This document shows, in pieces, positions 6,359-11,532 of a stretch of DNA of 64,000 nt (within the stretch, counting starts at the first letter, position 1; each line of letters opens with the position of its first letter). This DNA comes from Teretinema zuelzerae (GTDB lineage: Bacteria; Spirochaetota; Spirochaetia; Treponematales; Treponemataceae). The notes below the pieces were generated by a model, which saw only the letters and a list, made by a program, of their open reading frames with translations, did not search any database and was not told the origin of the DNA. Position numbers and translations under genes: made by a program. The stretch spans positions 1,736,001-1,800,000 of the forward strand of contig NZ_JAINWA010000003.1 of the NCBI RefSeq assembly GCF_021021555.1, written 5' to 3'.

Positions 6359-7096
6359 TCACAGATCAATATCAAATAACTCACTAATATTATGTTTCAG
6401 TTCATTTTCATAAATAGCTATCACATCTTTAACTCTGAAAAACATACTATCCGCATTACCAATTTTACTTCGAGTTATCAATCCTTTATCTTCTGCAATT
6501 TTTTGTACTTTTAACCAACCTTTATGATATTTTGGCAGCATTTCTGTTGAGATGAAATAATCATTCTGATTATATATTTTATGAATTTCTTCATTCATTG
6601 GCATAAATAGTTTTGGCCAAACATCCTCTGGAATATTATTTTCCACATAATGCATCGCGGTTAATTTTCTAATATCAACACCAACTAATAATCCATAACC
6701 ATTATCATTTACAAAATCCATTAAATCATTTACATATTGATTGGCATTTTTACCCCATGCTGCCATTCTGTGTTGTCCAGTTCCTATCACTGTTCCTGGC
6801 ATTCTACAAAAAATGTCAGCAATAATTCCCATATCGGTTCTTTCATTATGGTTTTCATCCAACCATTTATTTTTAGTAACAATTTCTAATGATACATCAT
6901 GCTCAGTTAAGGGCAAGCATTTTGATAATGGAAAAGCAGGCATAATTATATTGCCCTCAGCTGTTATCATACTTTTTAAATCAGTAATAATACTTTCGGG
7001 AGTACAGCTAGTTTCATTTATTGATCTCATTGACGAATGAAACTCAATCGACATACCTTTTGTAATTCCAGTACATACTAAATCATTTATAATCAT
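6359..7096 (-). CDS. Aminoglycoside N3-acetyltransferase-like protein (AAC(3) family)
   Basis: 245 residues, close to the usual 260-280 of AAC(3) enzymes. Family landmarks in order: EFHSSMRSINETSCTPESII (substrate loop), GNIIMPAFPLS, MGIIADIFCRMPGTV, GQHRMAAWGKNA (where classical enzymes have an RSxHPxxSxxAxG motif, so this is a divergent version) and LLVGVDIRKLTAMHYVE. AAC(3) enzymes transfer acetyl from acetyl-CoA to the 3-amino group of aminoglycosides; distant members acetylate other amines, so resistance is possible but not shown. The ATG follows GAGGA at long distance and AAAG nearer. A cassette-borne antibiotic acetyltransferase is typical integron cargo. Confidence 0.85.
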   Translation of the reverse strand: MIINDLVCTGITKGMSIEFHSSMRSINETSCTPESIITDLKSMITAEGNIIMPAFPLSKCLPLTEHDVSLEIVTKNKWLDENHNERTDMGIIADIFCRMPGTVIGTGQHRMAAWGKNANQYVNDLMDFVNDNGYGLLVGVDIRKLTAMHYVENNIPEDVWPKLFMPMNEEIHKIYNQNDYFISTEMLPKYHKGWLKVQKIAEDKGLITRSKIGNADSMFFRVKDVIAIYENELKHNISELFDIDL

Positions 7097-7128
7097 GTTC
7101 TTTAATTCCTCGCGCGCCGAAGGCGTCC

Positions 7129-7237
7129 ATCCAACATTTGCTTAACCTGCGTTTTGTTTGGCGCGGTTTTTGCCGAGCGTAGCGAAGTGCAAAAATCCGT
7201 GACAAGCAAATAAGTCAGGTTGAAGCAGTTGTTAGGA
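7129..7237 (-). other. attC site 9 (class A)
   Basis: Boxes ATCCAAC and GTTAGGA. Ends RHH/PIN cassette copy 1. Confidence 0.93.
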
Positions 7238-7246
7238 AAATTCCTA

Positions 7247-7669
7247 TTATCTTTTTTTAATCATTTTTAAGTATTCGGCTGGTGTTTGTATAACGAGATC
7301 CTTTTCCTTATAGTCTTTTCCATTTCGTGTAAGAATAATCTTAATCTCGTTCTCTCTTGCAGTAAAGTATTGTAACCCATCCTCAAAATCACTAAATTTT
7401 GAGTTTAATGCAAGATCAACAATTTTTTCATCAACAGAAATCACTCCGATTATTATTCGTAGTTTTCTTAATAATTCCTTTGCTTTTTCTATTCCTAAAA
7501 GTTTCCTTAATATATAGAAGACATTTGCAAAAACCAAGGATGTAGTTATTAACTCAATTTGTTTTGTATCCCCCAGGGTAAAAACTTCAGCTGCAAAATC
7601 ATAAAAAGGTTCACGTTTACACAACAAATCAAGAATAATATCAGAATCAATAAATACTTTTTTATTCAT
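7247..7669 (-). CDS. vapC: PIN-domain toxin, VapC-like (copy 1)
   Basis: 140 residues from MNKKVFIDSDIILDLL (a start 24 bases further upstream is also open). The PIN acidic residues are visible in IDSDIILD and near the end in FSDFEDGLQYFTA, with RNGKDY following. VapC toxins are Mg-dependent RNases. The start overlaps the end of the antitoxin gene, indicating translational coupling. A second copy lies at 12626-13048. Confidence 0.9.
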   Translation of the reverse strand: MNKKVFIDSDIILDLLCKREPFYDFAAEVFTLGDTKQIELITTSLVFANVFYILRKLLGIEKAKELLRKLRIIIGVISVDEKIVDLALNSKFSDFEDGLQYFTARENEIKIILTRNGKDYKEKDLVIQTPAEYLKMIKKR

Positions 7670-7901
7670 ATTTATGTTCCAAATATTGTACATAGTCGAT
7701 CTTATTAAGATCTTTCTCAGAAATTACACCGCTTAATTCTTCAACTAATGGGCTAAAATGTTTTATGGGTTCATTTTCAGAAATTAAATTTCTAAAATAA
7801 TCCTCCACAAGTTTTGATAAACTACGATTATTAGTTTGAGCGTATTTTTTAACAGATTGGATCACTGATTGATCAAGTTTTAAGGTCAGCTTTGTTTCCA
7901 T
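7662..7901 (-). CDS. Ribbon-helix-helix antitoxin (copy 1)
   Basis: 79 residues: METKLTLKLDQSVIQSVKKYA then NNRSLSKLVEDYFRNL, the beta strand and two helices of the RHH fold; residues 45-79 form the toxin-binding tail. Ribosome binding site AGGTG lies just upstream. Two TATACGTATA palindromes upstream are the probable operator. Confidence 0.9.
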   Translation of the reverse strand: METKLTLKLDQSVIQSVKKYAQTNNRSLSKLVEDYFRNLISENEPIKHFSPLVEELSGVISEKDLNKIDYVQYLEHKYE

Positions 7902-7913
7902 AAAACACCTCCA

Positions 7914-7947
7914 TATACGTATAACAGTAATGCAATATATACGTATA
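7914..7947 (-). promoter_or_regulatory. Paired TATACGTATA operator of the RHH/PIN module
   Basis: Two perfect 10-base palindromes, TATACGTATA at 7914-7923 and 7938-7947, 24 bp apart centre to centre, directly upstream of the antitoxin. RHH repressors bind paired sites of this kind as dimers of dimers. Confidence 0.7.
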
Positions 7948-8023
7948 GTAAAGCGATTTTATGCTATTTTTGTTAAATCATAACATTATAATGATTTCCT
8001 TCTTTTACGCGCCGAAGGCGTCG

Positions 8024-8136
8024 TCCTAACATTTGCTTAACCTGCGAGGCGTAATGGCGCGATTCTTGCCGAGGCGCAAAGCGCCGACAAGCAAGAATCG
8101 TGACATAGCCGAGTCAGGTTGAAGCAGTTGTTAGCA
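8024..8136 (-). other. attC site 10 (class E)
   Basis: Boxes TCCTAAC and GTTAGCA. Inner cap is GGCGC-AAA-GCGCC, one of the few caps not of GNA type. Ends the restriction-modification cassette. Confidence 0.92.
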
Positions 8137-8144
8137 GATTTTTT

Positions 8145-8738
8145 TTAGACTAATGCTCGCCCATCTGTACCCTTATAAATTTGCGGTACAGACTCAGATA
8201 TCGAATCATATTCAACTTCAATTACGGCTAGAACACCTTCAACAGGAAGACTTTTCCAAATAGGGAAATATGGTTCAATTTCTGCAAAATTTCCAATACG
8301 ATCTGTTAAATGAAAATATAAATCTCTGGAAGGAACGACAAGCACTCCACCAATAAGTGATTTTGTAATAAGTCCTAAGGCCATCTTATTTAATGCTCTG
8401 TGACTTGAAGAAATATTCCCAGTTTCCCATTCAAATGCAAAATCACCATAATGATCAACCGATAGAACAGCATCAACTGGACCAGGAGATATTCTAGATC
8501 CAAGATCCATTTTTTTCTCAAGTTCCCAATCTCTATTTTTCAAATATGATACACATCGCTCTTTTATTGGCTTTACACCATTAGCATTTTTTCCAGGAAA
8601 TATTGTAAATGTATCAGCGCCATCTGGCCATTTCACAGAATCAATAGCTTTATAAATTGTTGAAAAAATCAGCTCATATGCAGGAGAGTCAATAAAGTCC
8701 CCTTTTTTAATAAGGAATTCAGTTCTTAATGTTTTCAT
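8145..8738 (-). CDS. BamHI-like type II restriction endonuclease
   Basis: 197 residues against 213 in BamHI. Shared landmarks, from memory of the BamHI sequence: DTFTIFPGKNANGVKPIKE, the catalytic GPVDAV (position of BamHI Asp94) and FEWETGNISSSHRALNK (positions of Glu111 and Glu113), then LYFHLTDRIGNFAEIEPYF and a closing PQIYKGTDG. All catalytic acidic residues are present, so the enzyme looks intact; GGATCC recognition is the natural prediction but is inferred. It follows the controller gene with an overlap of 20 bp and is opposed by a divergent methyltransferase. Confidence 0.92.
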   Translation of the reverse strand: MKTLRTEFLIKKGDFIDSPAYELIFSTIYKAIDSVKWPDGADTFTIFPGKNANGVKPIKERCVSYLKNRDWELEKKMDLGSRISPGPVDAVLSVDHYGDFAFEWETGNISSSHRALNKMALGLITKSLIGGVLVVPSRDLYFHLTDRIGNFAEIEPYFPIWKSLPVEGVLAVIEVEYDSISESVPQIYKGTDGRALV

Positions 8739-8970
8739 TCCAATCTCCCTCTACGTGATGAATTAGCTCAGAGGGAGTGATTTGAAGTGAATTAGCTATT
8801 CGGAAAATGGTTTTTAATGTTGGTTGCCGTAAACCTCGTTCAATTAAGGATATGTAAGTTCTGTCGAGTTCACATAAATCTGCTAGTTGTTCTTGAGACA
8901 GACCTTTTTGATTTCTTAATTGCCTAACTATTTTACCGAAAAGTAACTCATTACTCAATTTTTCCCTCAT
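8719..8970 (-). CDS. Restriction-modification controller (C) protein, HTH XRE family
   Basis: 83 residues, the usual size of C proteins. The helix-turn-helix is at residues 12-65: LRNQKGLSQEQLADLCELDRTYISLIERGLRQP. C proteins activate their own operon and delay restriction until methylation is complete. It is the first gene of the leftward CR operon and its binding site lies in the divergent intergenic region. Confidence 0.92.
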   Translation of the reverse strand: MREKLSNELLFGKIVRQLRNQKGLSQEQLADLCELDRTYISLIERGLRQPTLKTIFRIANSLQITPSELIHHVEGDWNENIKN

Positions 8971-8998
8971 ATAGTAGGGTAAAATCGATGTTACTATC

Positions 8999-9017
8999 AG
9001 TCCACGGACTATAGTCC
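8999..9017. promoter_or_regulatory. C-box operators between controller and methyltransferase
   Basis: Perfect palindrome GGACTATAGTCC at 9006-9017 overlaps a near-palindrome AGTCCACGGACT at 8999-9010. GACT...AGTC pairs are the established signature of controller-protein binding sites. It sits about where the -35 of the rightward promoter should be. Confidence 0.8.
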
Positions 9018-9034
9018 GAATATACTAAGTATGT

Positions 9035-9040
9035 TATAAT
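9035..9040 (+). promoter_or_regulatory. Probable -10 element of the methyltransferase gene
   Basis: TATAAT, preceded by TG at one base spacing, 31 bp before the ATG at 9071, with TGGAG as ribosome binding site. The C-box covers the -35 position, suggesting repression by the C protein. Confidence 0.55.
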
Positions 9041-9070
9041 CATATTAAGTATGATATTTTTGGAGTTCCA

Positions 9071-10276
9071 ATGATAACAACAAATACACTTTTTAAAACC
9101 CTTGGAATTAACAATAAAAACCTACTCTCTGTTGTAAATGCAACTGGAATTTCAAAAGAAACATTGAAATACTATAATGACTCAAAAAAGATACCGATTG
9201 GAAGAGATTTGGAAAAAATCTGTGATTTTTTCCAAATCTCACCAAATTATCTTAAACTACGACTTGGTTTTCTTGATAATTCAATACTCGATGTTTTATC
9301 ATCAGAAACAGAATGCTTAAAAAAACTATTCCCTTACCAACCTTTTGTTCTTAATAAAGGATGCCCTACACCTAGTTTTCAAACAAAACTAGGAAAGCTC
9401 TATAAACAAGATTGTATTAGCTTTTTAAAAACAATCGAAGATAATTCATTTGATGTAATCTTTGCAGATCCTCCATTTAACCTTAATAAGCTTTATCCAT
9501 CAAAGATGAATGATTCATTAAAAGAGGAAGAATACATAGCGTGGCAAGAGGAATGGGTTTATGAGTGTATTCGAGTTCTAAAACCTGGTGGATCTTTTTT
9601 TATTTGGAATTTACCACGCTGGAATACTTATCTAACTCCTTTATTAAATTCTCACTTAACCTTTAAACATTGGATTAGTGTTGATGTAAAATACTCATTA
9701 CCAATACCAGGAAGACTTTATCCTTCACATTATTCATTGTTGTATTATATAAAAGGCGCTAAAGCTAATACATTTCACCCAGATAGATTACCAATGGAAA
9801 TATGCCCGAACTGTCAAACGGATTTGCGGGATTATGGTGGATATAAAGATAAAATGAATCCACTTGGTGTTAATCTTTCAGATGTTTGGTATGACATCCC
9901 ACCCGTACGCCATTCAAAGTATAAAAAACGAAAAGGTGCAAACGAACTATCATTGAAATTGCTGGATCGAATTATTGAGATGTCAAGCAATGAAGGTGAT
10001 ATAATTTTTGATCCTTTTGGTGGATCAGGAACAACTTATATTGTTGCTGAACTTAAAAATCGTTCATGGGTTGGAACAGAAATAGGACCTCTTGAAGATA
10101 TTATTAATCGATTCTCTGTACTTGATGAAGAGAAAGAGTACTTACAAAATATACGTGCTAAATTGAATTGTCTATTTACTGAAAAGGATTTAAAAACAAG
10201 AGCAAAGCTTGGATTATGGACTCCTGAATCTGTTCGAAAGAAAAAAGAACTAGCAAATAGTTTATTTGATAATTAA
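9071..10276 (+). CDS. DNA methyltransferase partner of the BamHI-like enzyme (probably N4-cytosine)
   Basis: 401 residues. Residues 1-75 look like a small HTH-type domain (ETLKYYNDSKKIPIGRDLEKICDFF). The catalytic part is a beta-class amino-methyltransferase: motif IV is VIFADPPFNLNK near residue 135, and the AdoMet motif I is FDPFGGSGTT near 312, the order typical of the beta class. A CPNCQTDL insert in the middle is Cys-rich. It transfers methyl from AdoMet to the exocyclic amine of the recognition sequence to protect host DNA. It is one of the few + strand genes in the array, so it needs its own promoter and runs against array transcription. Confidence 0.92.
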   Translation: MITTNTLFKTLGINNKNLLSVVNATGISKETLKYYNDSKKIPIGRDLEKICDFFQISPNYLKLRLGFLDNSILDVLSSETECLKKLFPYQPFVLNKGCPTPSFQTKLGKLYKQDCISFLKTIEDNSFDVIFADPPFNLNKLYPSKMNDSLKEEEYIAWQEEWVYECIRVLKPGGSFFIWNLPRWNTYLTPLLNSHLTFKHWISVDVKYSLPIPGRLYPSHYSLLYYIKGAKANTFHPDRLPMEICPNCQTDLRDYGGYKDKMNPLGVNLSDVWYDIPPVRHSKYKKRKGANELSLKLLDRIIEMSSNEGDIIFDPFGGSGTTYIVAELKNRSWVGTEIGPLEDIINRFSVLDEEKEYLQNIRAKLNCLFTEKDLKTRAKLGLWTPESVRKKKELANSLFDN

Positions 10277-10298
10277 TCCTCGCGCGCCGAAGGCGTCC

Positions 10299-10408
10299 TG
10301 CTAACATTTATTTAACCTGCATTGCGTACATTGGCGCACTTTTTGCCGAGCGAAGCGACTAGCAAAAAGTGTGACAATAGCAATGTCAGGTTGAAATAGT
10401 TGTTATCC
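10299..10408 (-). other. attC site 11 (class B)
   Basis: Boxes TGCTAAC and GTTATCC; ATTTAACC arm variant as in site 1. Belongs to family A copy 2. Confidence 0.93.
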
Positions 10409-11033
10409 AATTTTTGGTTTCAGTTCTGCTGTAGCTTCGTTTTCAACTAATTTGTGTACTAATCTTTTTACTTTTACAAACGTTACCAACGTCTTAAATT
10501 TTATTACGCAACAAAAATATTTTCTACAGAAAGCTCCGTTTTGTTTTTTACTCTACAGCAGTTTCATACAAAACATTTTTCTTTTCTTTCCATTTTCTTC
10601 TATTATATAAGACCAAATCCAGTCCAATTACCTTGATTCGTTTCTGCAAAACATCAAGATCCTATTGTATAGGACTATGGAATGATAACCAGCAACTGAA
10701 TCAGTTTTTTATTTTGATTTGCTTCGTATAAGCCACTGTAAGGTTATTTATCGAAAACTATTGTGCAGGATTCTCATTTTACTGCTGAATAACCACAGTA
10801 ATCTAAAAACCTTATATCCAGGATCTTATCAATTCAAGATGTTAAAAATCAATTGAAAAGCAACGTCCTACAGTCACCTTAAATTCTTGATAGTAAAAAC
10901 GGAACACTGTTTTGCTGTTTTATTTTTAATGGATCTTCAGCATTTATCGCGAGAACTTGCACCGTATTCCAAAATATATTTCGAGATTTATAAGCGTTTT
11001 TAGTTCTTCCATCCTCGCCCGCCGAAGGCGTGG
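10409..11033. repeat. Gene-less cassette family A, copy 2
   Basis: About 625 bp, close match to 119-744 with scattered substitutions and small indels spread evenly, without the codon-phase pattern expected of a gene. Some of the short stems seen in copy 1 are broken here (for example CTTATCAATT against AATTGAAAAG). Confidence 0.8.
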
Positions 11034-11142
11034 GGATAACATTTGCTTAACCTGCGTTTTGTTTGGCGCGGTTTTTGCCGAGCGTAGCGAAGAGCAAAAA
11101 TCCGTGACAAGCAAATAAGTCAGGTTGAAGCAGTTGTTAGAT
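11034..11142 (-). other. attC site 12 (class A)
   Basis: Boxes GGATAAC and GTTAGAT. Ends family B copy 2. Confidence 0.93.
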
Positions 11143-11532
11143 CGCCAACTGTTAAACAATTCAGTTTATAACCAACTACATCAATGTTAGAAAACGATTT
11201 GCAGTACCATTAAAAACCCGAAGGCTGAATCCTTATGACTTGTTATAATGTGAAGACTGAGGCAACTCTTCTGCATATCGTTTTCTAACATCAGTTCCTG
11301 CAAGTTTTAGCACAAGTGGTATGAAGTCAACTTCATCAACGAAAGAAAAAGTTTTAATCACGATGACACTTTAAGTAATAAACTAGGTGCAAACTGTATA
11401 ACCGTTTTTTAGAGTGTTATCATCTGTTGAACTTTTTCTTAAGTTTATTTTCAGCGACAGTTTACTTCAGTTATACACAATCTTCTTCCAAATCTATTTC
11501 TTTTTCTTCTATTAATAAGTGTAGATTGGTCG
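11143..11532. repeat. Gene-less cassette family B, copy 2
   Basis: Nearly identical to 4839-5228; the 14-base inverted repeat and the inner pairs are intact. Confidence 0.82.

Follow-up and report, generated by a model that had tools for sequence, protein, structure and literature searches.

A probable BamHI/OkrAI-type restriction-modification system with its own controller in an integron cassette

Controller (C) proteins were first discovered in the BamHI and PvuII restriction-modification (R-M) systems (PMC12707154). The methyltransferase of the former, M.BamHI, makes N4-methylcytosine (N4mC; PMC2890505), and OkrAI is an isoschizomer of BamHI (PMC4081073). As cited in PMC12707154, Vaisvila (2001) placed type II R-M genes in cassettes of pseudomonad super-integrons, and R-M in integron cassettes is also on record for Xanthomonas and in the survey by Darracq et al. 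(PMC12444791; PMC12409362). In the literature that we searched, no BamHI-type cassette under C control was found for a Treponema-like array.

Here we analyze such a candidate in a 64-kb stretch of DNA from Teretinema zuelzerae, termed the window, in which three intact genes lie between two attC sites (both strands of positions 7000-11500 were read): an endonuclease (R), a controller (C) and a methyltransferase (M). A first-pass annotation had proposed a BamHI-like type II R-M system with a controller in a single cassette, a proposal supported by family, structure and synteny, and the locus is highly likely to be a complete, self-contained BamHI/OkrAI-type system that is mobile as an integron cassette. 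The computations show the family and fold, the conserved residues and C-boxes, the gene order and the cassette borders; activity, cut sequence, methylated base, delay and repression of M are inferred. The cassette would make mobile a potentially lethal type II system of the textbook kind, along with the circuit that times it, in support of the idea that large integrons store genes for defence.

Cassette borders and the surrounding array

The cassette spans about 8030-10304 on the minus strand (2275 bp, or ~2.28 kb; 34% GC), with borders taken from the G|TT crossover of both attC sites: read on the minus strand, it starts with TTAGCA at 10304 and carries its own attC at the 8030 end. Both this attC (8024-8136, minus strand; z of -4.9 and -6.2 against shuffles) and that of the neighboring cassette, which forms the right-hand border (10299-10408, minus strand), fold far below shuffled sequences, and no attC-like site occurs between them. 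The unit is thus a single cassette, as first annotated; the span given at that time, 8024-10298, had the right place, but its exact limits were off by 6 nt. At 2.28 kb and with three genes, the unit exceeds most cassettes of the array, as might a system that is fixed in the chromosome or an island and has come to lie among attC sites by chance. Such a coincidence is barely credible, however, given that both attC sites fold, that the stop codons of R and M are close to the cassette ends (that of R is 8 nt away from the attC belonging to this cassette, that of M 28 nt away from the other crossover), and that the R family is missing from relatives. R occurs once in the genome, which holds no second full copy of M, and its absence from all 58 relatives searched argues for horizontal gain of what we continue to regard as a mobile cassette.

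Pattern matching counts 52 attC sites in the 64-kb window, and genome-wide the attC core pattern has ~160 matches on the strand of the array, which is roughly 180 kb long, and 7 on the other. The extra base in the arm CTTCAACC, as compared with CTTAACC, together with the run of minus-strand genes, identifies the minus strand as the sense strand of the array, such that C and R are sense, and M is antisense, to the array. The integrase (C3:1880840-1881784, minus strand; profile score of 457 bits against a cut-off of 265) lies ~135 kb from the cassette and is transcribed in the same direction as the cassettes, matching the atypical layout of Treponema integrons, in which the integrase is co-directional with the cassettes (PMC3607928). 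By this layout, the host is probably Treponema-like. With folding attC borders and an array that includes an integrase, the unit belongs among integron cassettes.

Most cassettes of the array share a further feature: on the minus strand, just past the attC crossover, they read TTAGNN-GA(C), followed by a short hairpin and often by an AGGA Shine-Dalgarno-like stretch. The cassette under study has CGCC-TTC-GGCG at 10285-10295 (minus strand), and other examples lie just left of the attC starts at 7130, 12509, 39064, 45115, 46177 and 59766. The stems vary and yet pair (CGCC-GGCG, CCC-GGG, CGCCGC-GCGGCG, CTCCGC-GCGGAG, CGCAGC-GCTGCG, CACCGC-GCGGTG); stems of at least 4 pairs occur at 38 of 53 distinct cassette starts, where shuffles predict 5, and stems of 3 pairs are common among the remaining starts. 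A fixed place with changing but paired sequence suggests a functional hairpin, perhaps an RNA leader or a recombination feature, of which we found no description in the literature searched. Five cassettes (attC starts 5230, 11534, 28268, 43088 and 61076) share the start GACCAATCTACACTTATTAATA without the hairpin and may all be copies of a single cassette poor in ORFs.

Several other features were observed in and around the array. In a cassette adjoining the R-M unit, a PIN-domain protein is encoded together with a DUF6364/ribbon-helix-helix partner (7247-7901, minus strand), likely a toxin-antitoxin pair, and another cassette (6359-7096, minus strand) encodes an aminoglycoside 3-N-acetyltransferase family protein (PF02522, 1.3e-26). 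That end of the array which holds the integrase has two near-identical ORFs of 356 aa with zinc-finger-like motifs, possibly IS91-type transposases (L091, 5854-6924 and 7276-8346; G000:C3 ~1877853-1880345), the first of which adjoins a very short attC (~60 nt). Isolated attC-like sites far from the array (G000:C1 ~477934-536532, C1:3106, C1:1580726 and C3:1974470), several of them reversed, are possible outlying cassettes.

Nuclease and methyltransferase

The nuclease R (8145-8738, minus strand; 197 aa) matches PF02923 (BamHI) with an E-value of 4.6e-60 over 156 of 157 profile positions (202 bits against a curated cut-off of 22.8), and PADLOC labels it a type II restriction enzyme. Its only real matches among solved structures are OkrAI (4.9e-58, residues 1-196 of 197) and BamHI (1.1e-26), to whose crystal-structure sequences it is ~48-49% and 38% identical. 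The comparison with BamHI by structure prediction that had been proposed for this locus was run: the AlphaFold2 model (pLDDT 93) superposes on OkrAI with a TM-score of 0.91 and on BamHI with one of ~0.85, leaving BstYI and BglII far behind (8-17% identity). GPVDAV of R aligns to BamHI GPIDVY, and FEWETGNISSSHR to BamHI MEFETGNISSAHR, so that E74, D89, E103 and E105 of R are the counterparts of BamHI E77, D94, E111 and E113; among 32 R homologues, D89, E103 and E105 are invariant and E74 is at least 90% conserved. The first-pass annotation had claimed a catalytic Asp and two Glu, and would have abandoned its reading had they failed to align; D89, E103 and E105 align to D94, E111 and E113, and that reading survives.

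The residues that contact the bases of GGATCC in the BamHI-DNA structure, which we take to be N116, S118, R122, D154, R155 and D196 (numbering checked against the R-BamHI alignment), are all kept in R as N108, S110, R114, D146, R147 and D192, the first five invariant and D192 at least 90% conserved among the 32 homologues. With catalytic and base-contact positions all kept, R would be expected to cut GGATCC, and cleavage as G/GATCC is predicted from the base-contact positions. A related site, AGATCT or RGATCY, might be considered, given that BglII and BstYI have the same fold, at low similarity. This is very improbable, however, for an enzyme that retains the BamHI base-contact residues and is 48% identical to OkrAI, against 8-17% to BglII and BstYI, and GGATCC remains the predicted site.

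M (9071-10276; 401 aa) lies on the plus strand and R and C on the minus strand, in agreement with the opposite direction originally noted for the methyltransferase. It is an amino-methyltransferase (PF01555, N6_N4_Mtase, 6e-39; PADLOC MTase_II, 2.1e-139 over residues 10-394) of the beta class, with motif IV (FADPPFNL, residues 131-138) preceding motif I (DPFGGSGTT, residues 314-322). Most N4-cytosine methylases carry SPPY, and DPPF is closer to DPPY of the adenine type (PMC8885841). This motif, the presence of the adenine methylases MboIIA and BceJIV among the best matches of M, and a match to an adenine-specific NCBIfam model, at a score far under its cut-off, would fit an N6-adenine methylase that blocks R by making GGm6ATCC. 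We nonetheless consider adenine methylation distinctly unlikely: by fold, M matches an N4-cytosine enzyme best, and a chain of orthology leads to the BamHI system, with its N4mC methylase. On a Geobacillus plasmid, a nuclease that is 72% identical to BamHI is accompanied by a C gene and by a DPPF-family M, which is 47% identical to the window's M and arranged in the same head-to-head order. Because M is orthologous to the methylase beside this near-BamHI nuclease, and M.BamHI is an N4-cytosine enzyme, M probably makes N4mC as well, most likely at the inner cytosine of GGATCC, and would in this way shield the site from R.

Of the BamHI-type loci in which an M lies close by and its motif can be read (~75), all but one carry the FADPPFN family. 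The exception is a locus from Thermogemmatispora (L035, 6599-7669), in which a BamHI-type nuclease is accompanied by an SPPY methylase instead of a DPPF one, a swap that could help to test which base is methylated.

Controller, promoters and a putative second brake

C (8719-8970, minus strand; 83 aa; HTH_3, 3e-17) is a small helix-turn-helix (HTH) protein encoded 5' of R, the start of which it overlaps by 20 nt, the usual layout being a C-R overlap of ~20 nt (PMC2997769). Its start codon is ambiguous (ATG at 8970, or TTG at 8958 after GAGGG); its best matches in the PDB are C.BclI and C.AhdI, and PADLOC assigns it to Control_protein (1.5e-20). Published C operators consist of two GACT-tat-AGTC boxes with GT within the spacer (PMC4824078), and, similarly, two GACT-N-AGTC boxes with a GT-containing spacer precede C. 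C-box 1, the distal half-site (GGACTATAGTCC; 9006-9017, minus strand), matches the published form and occurs as a single copy in the 64 kb, and C-box 2, the proximal half-site (GACTGATAGT; 8993-9002, minus strand), was aligned with relatives. The pair 5' of C reads GACTATAGTC-CGTG-GACTGATAGT, with CGTG as spacer, and the C strand from 9018 to 8993 reads CGGACTATAGTC-CGTG-GACTGATAGT; relatives anchored on the C-box have TG.AGACTATAGTC.GT.GA in common. Upstream of R, ACTATAGT is present at 17 of the 28 loci that have C (window included) and at 0 of the 56 that lack it (shuffled expectation 0.01 per locus; Fisher p 8e-11, which overstates independence, the 84 R loci being related). The intact C gene and the box at 9006-9017 are thus as the first-pass annotation had them, save that it missed the second half-site.

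The probable M promoter has an extended -10 element (TGTTATAAT; 9032-9040, plus strand), and its -35 region (9012-9017) falls within C-box 1; the weak M -35 and the C promoter were assigned by eye. With the M -35 inside C-box 1, binding of C should hinder M, an effect reported for several C systems (PMC12707154). On arrival in a new host, M would be made at once from its own promoter, and C and R, on one overlapping transcript, would begin at a trickle. C would then bind both C-boxes and raise expression of C and R and, since C-box 1 covers the M -35, would probably also turn M down. The N-terminal HTH-like domain of M may act as a second brake. The C-protein delay of R, like N4mC at GGATCC, is a sound inference from the family.

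Given divergent promoters of its own within the cassette, the system would not need the integron promoter, and the independence initially claimed for it is in good agreement with the anatomy: the cassette has C-boxes of its own, M has an extended -10 and runs antisense to the array, and the integrase is ~135 kb distant. C and R, lying in cassette sense, could nevertheless be read through from neighboring cassettes. The same distance of the integrase and its promoter region could be taken to mean that the genes are silent cargo, intact but unexpressed deep in the array, or that R is inactive, and most deep cassettes elsewhere are thought to be little expressed (PMC12409362). The genome also holds 823 GGATCC sites, which likewise fits an idle R, but these sites only demand a working M if R works. 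All ORFs and active-site residues are intact, and the cassette has conserved C-boxes and a promoter-like site for M of its own; we therefore regard silence as unlikely and favor a self-regulated system, whose divergent layout would explain how a toxic multi-gene unit can live far from the integron promoter. Avoidance of GGATCC, considered as a sign of long use of R, was not seen at 823 genomic sites; the cassette itself (8030-10304) has 0 copies, and the window has 3 against 7 expected, too few to weigh.

The N-terminal domain of M (residues 1-66; 9071-9268, plus strand) is HTH-like, with five predicted helices that are modeled at a pLDDT of 89-98 over residues 11-70. It matches HTH_26 weakly (0.007), and a few homologues weakly match HTH_3, HTH_31 or MerR; the first-pass annotation had missed the domain. 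Among the loci tabulated, long forms of M that carry the domain occur at all 22 in which M is head-to-head with C-R or R, compared with 1 of 53 of other layouts, although on the tree (3 label changes) the long forms essentially group as a single clade, so that these reflect few events and not 22 independent ones. Some members of the clade have the domain and no C (L007, L046, L074, L083 and L086). Fused N-terminal repressors are known for the methylases of Ecl18kI, SsoII and EcoRII, which carry an HTH of ~70 residues ahead of the catalytic domain, comparable to the HTH-like domain of M, and which lie, as M does, beside overlapping divergent promoters (PMC12707154, PMC3978073). SsoII, however, is a C5 methylase, whereas the window's M is an amino-methylase that is accompanied by a separate C protein. 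By this likeness, self-repression is a plausible role for the domain.

Two 16-nt direct repeats (9022-9037 and 9042-9057, plus strand; 14 of 16 positions alike, 20-nt period) cover the -10 and start region of M and are a candidate M operator, with such similarity reached in 0 of 200 shuffles. As a conserved operator for the domain they were rejected: relatives with enough spacer show nothing comparable. We tentatively propose, as a possibility that falls short of our favored expectation, that head-to-head BamHI-type systems stack two regulators, C and an M that represses itself through its N-terminal HTH, with the M domain as sole switch where C has been lost (loci of Clostridium, Geosporobacter and Bacteroidota), and that the pair makes the unit promoter-independent and fit for a cassette. 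In a system that laboratories across the world use as a reagent, the tight link between the domain and head-to-head promoters would thus offer a second layer of control that can be tested.

Distribution and comparison with known systems

Relatives of R and M are scattered across many phyla and also occur on plasmids. No R relative was present in 50,697 phage records, and carriage by phages was rejected. Integrons do not emerge as frequent carriers of BamHI-type systems: when ~84 other loci were scanned for attC-like sites, with a scan tuned on the window's array such that other attC types may escape it, hits remained at chance level (7 loci, compared with 3 hits after shuffling). The window's system is the only one of ~85 BamHI-type loci examined with flanking attC sites above chance. 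A 5.5-kb plasmid of Klebsiella michiganensis (L003) carries an M of the DPPF family (54%), an HTH ORF and a 297-aa protein, annotated as hypothetical, whose weak similarity to BamHI (33% over 77 residues) makes it a possible diverged BamHI-type nuclease.

The nearest relative of the system is in Bacteroides sp. UBA1317 (L007), where R is 58% identical, the catalytic part of M is 68% identical, and a long M is likewise head-to-head with R; there, however, neither a C gene nor a C-box was found between M and R, and no attC was detected. A plasmid of Desulfocapsa sulfexigens (NC_020305, L002) has the same three genes in the same order with the C-box GACTATAGTC (R 56%, M 56%), but this copy is plasmid-borne, and an integron-like site was looked for beside the unit and none detected. 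BamHI R-M of Bacillus amyloliquefaciens shares the fold and active site of R (TM 0.85) and a C protein, although its nuclease is only 38% identical and longer (213 aa as opposed to 197), and the window's system differs in residing in an integron cassette. OkrAI from Oceanobacter kriegii (PDB 3odh) is closer to R than BamHI is, at 49% identity over the full length and a TM-score of 0.91, and the two have the compact form of 194-197 aa in common. The parts of the system are thus all of known kinds, and it is their place, in an integron cassette, that is unusual.
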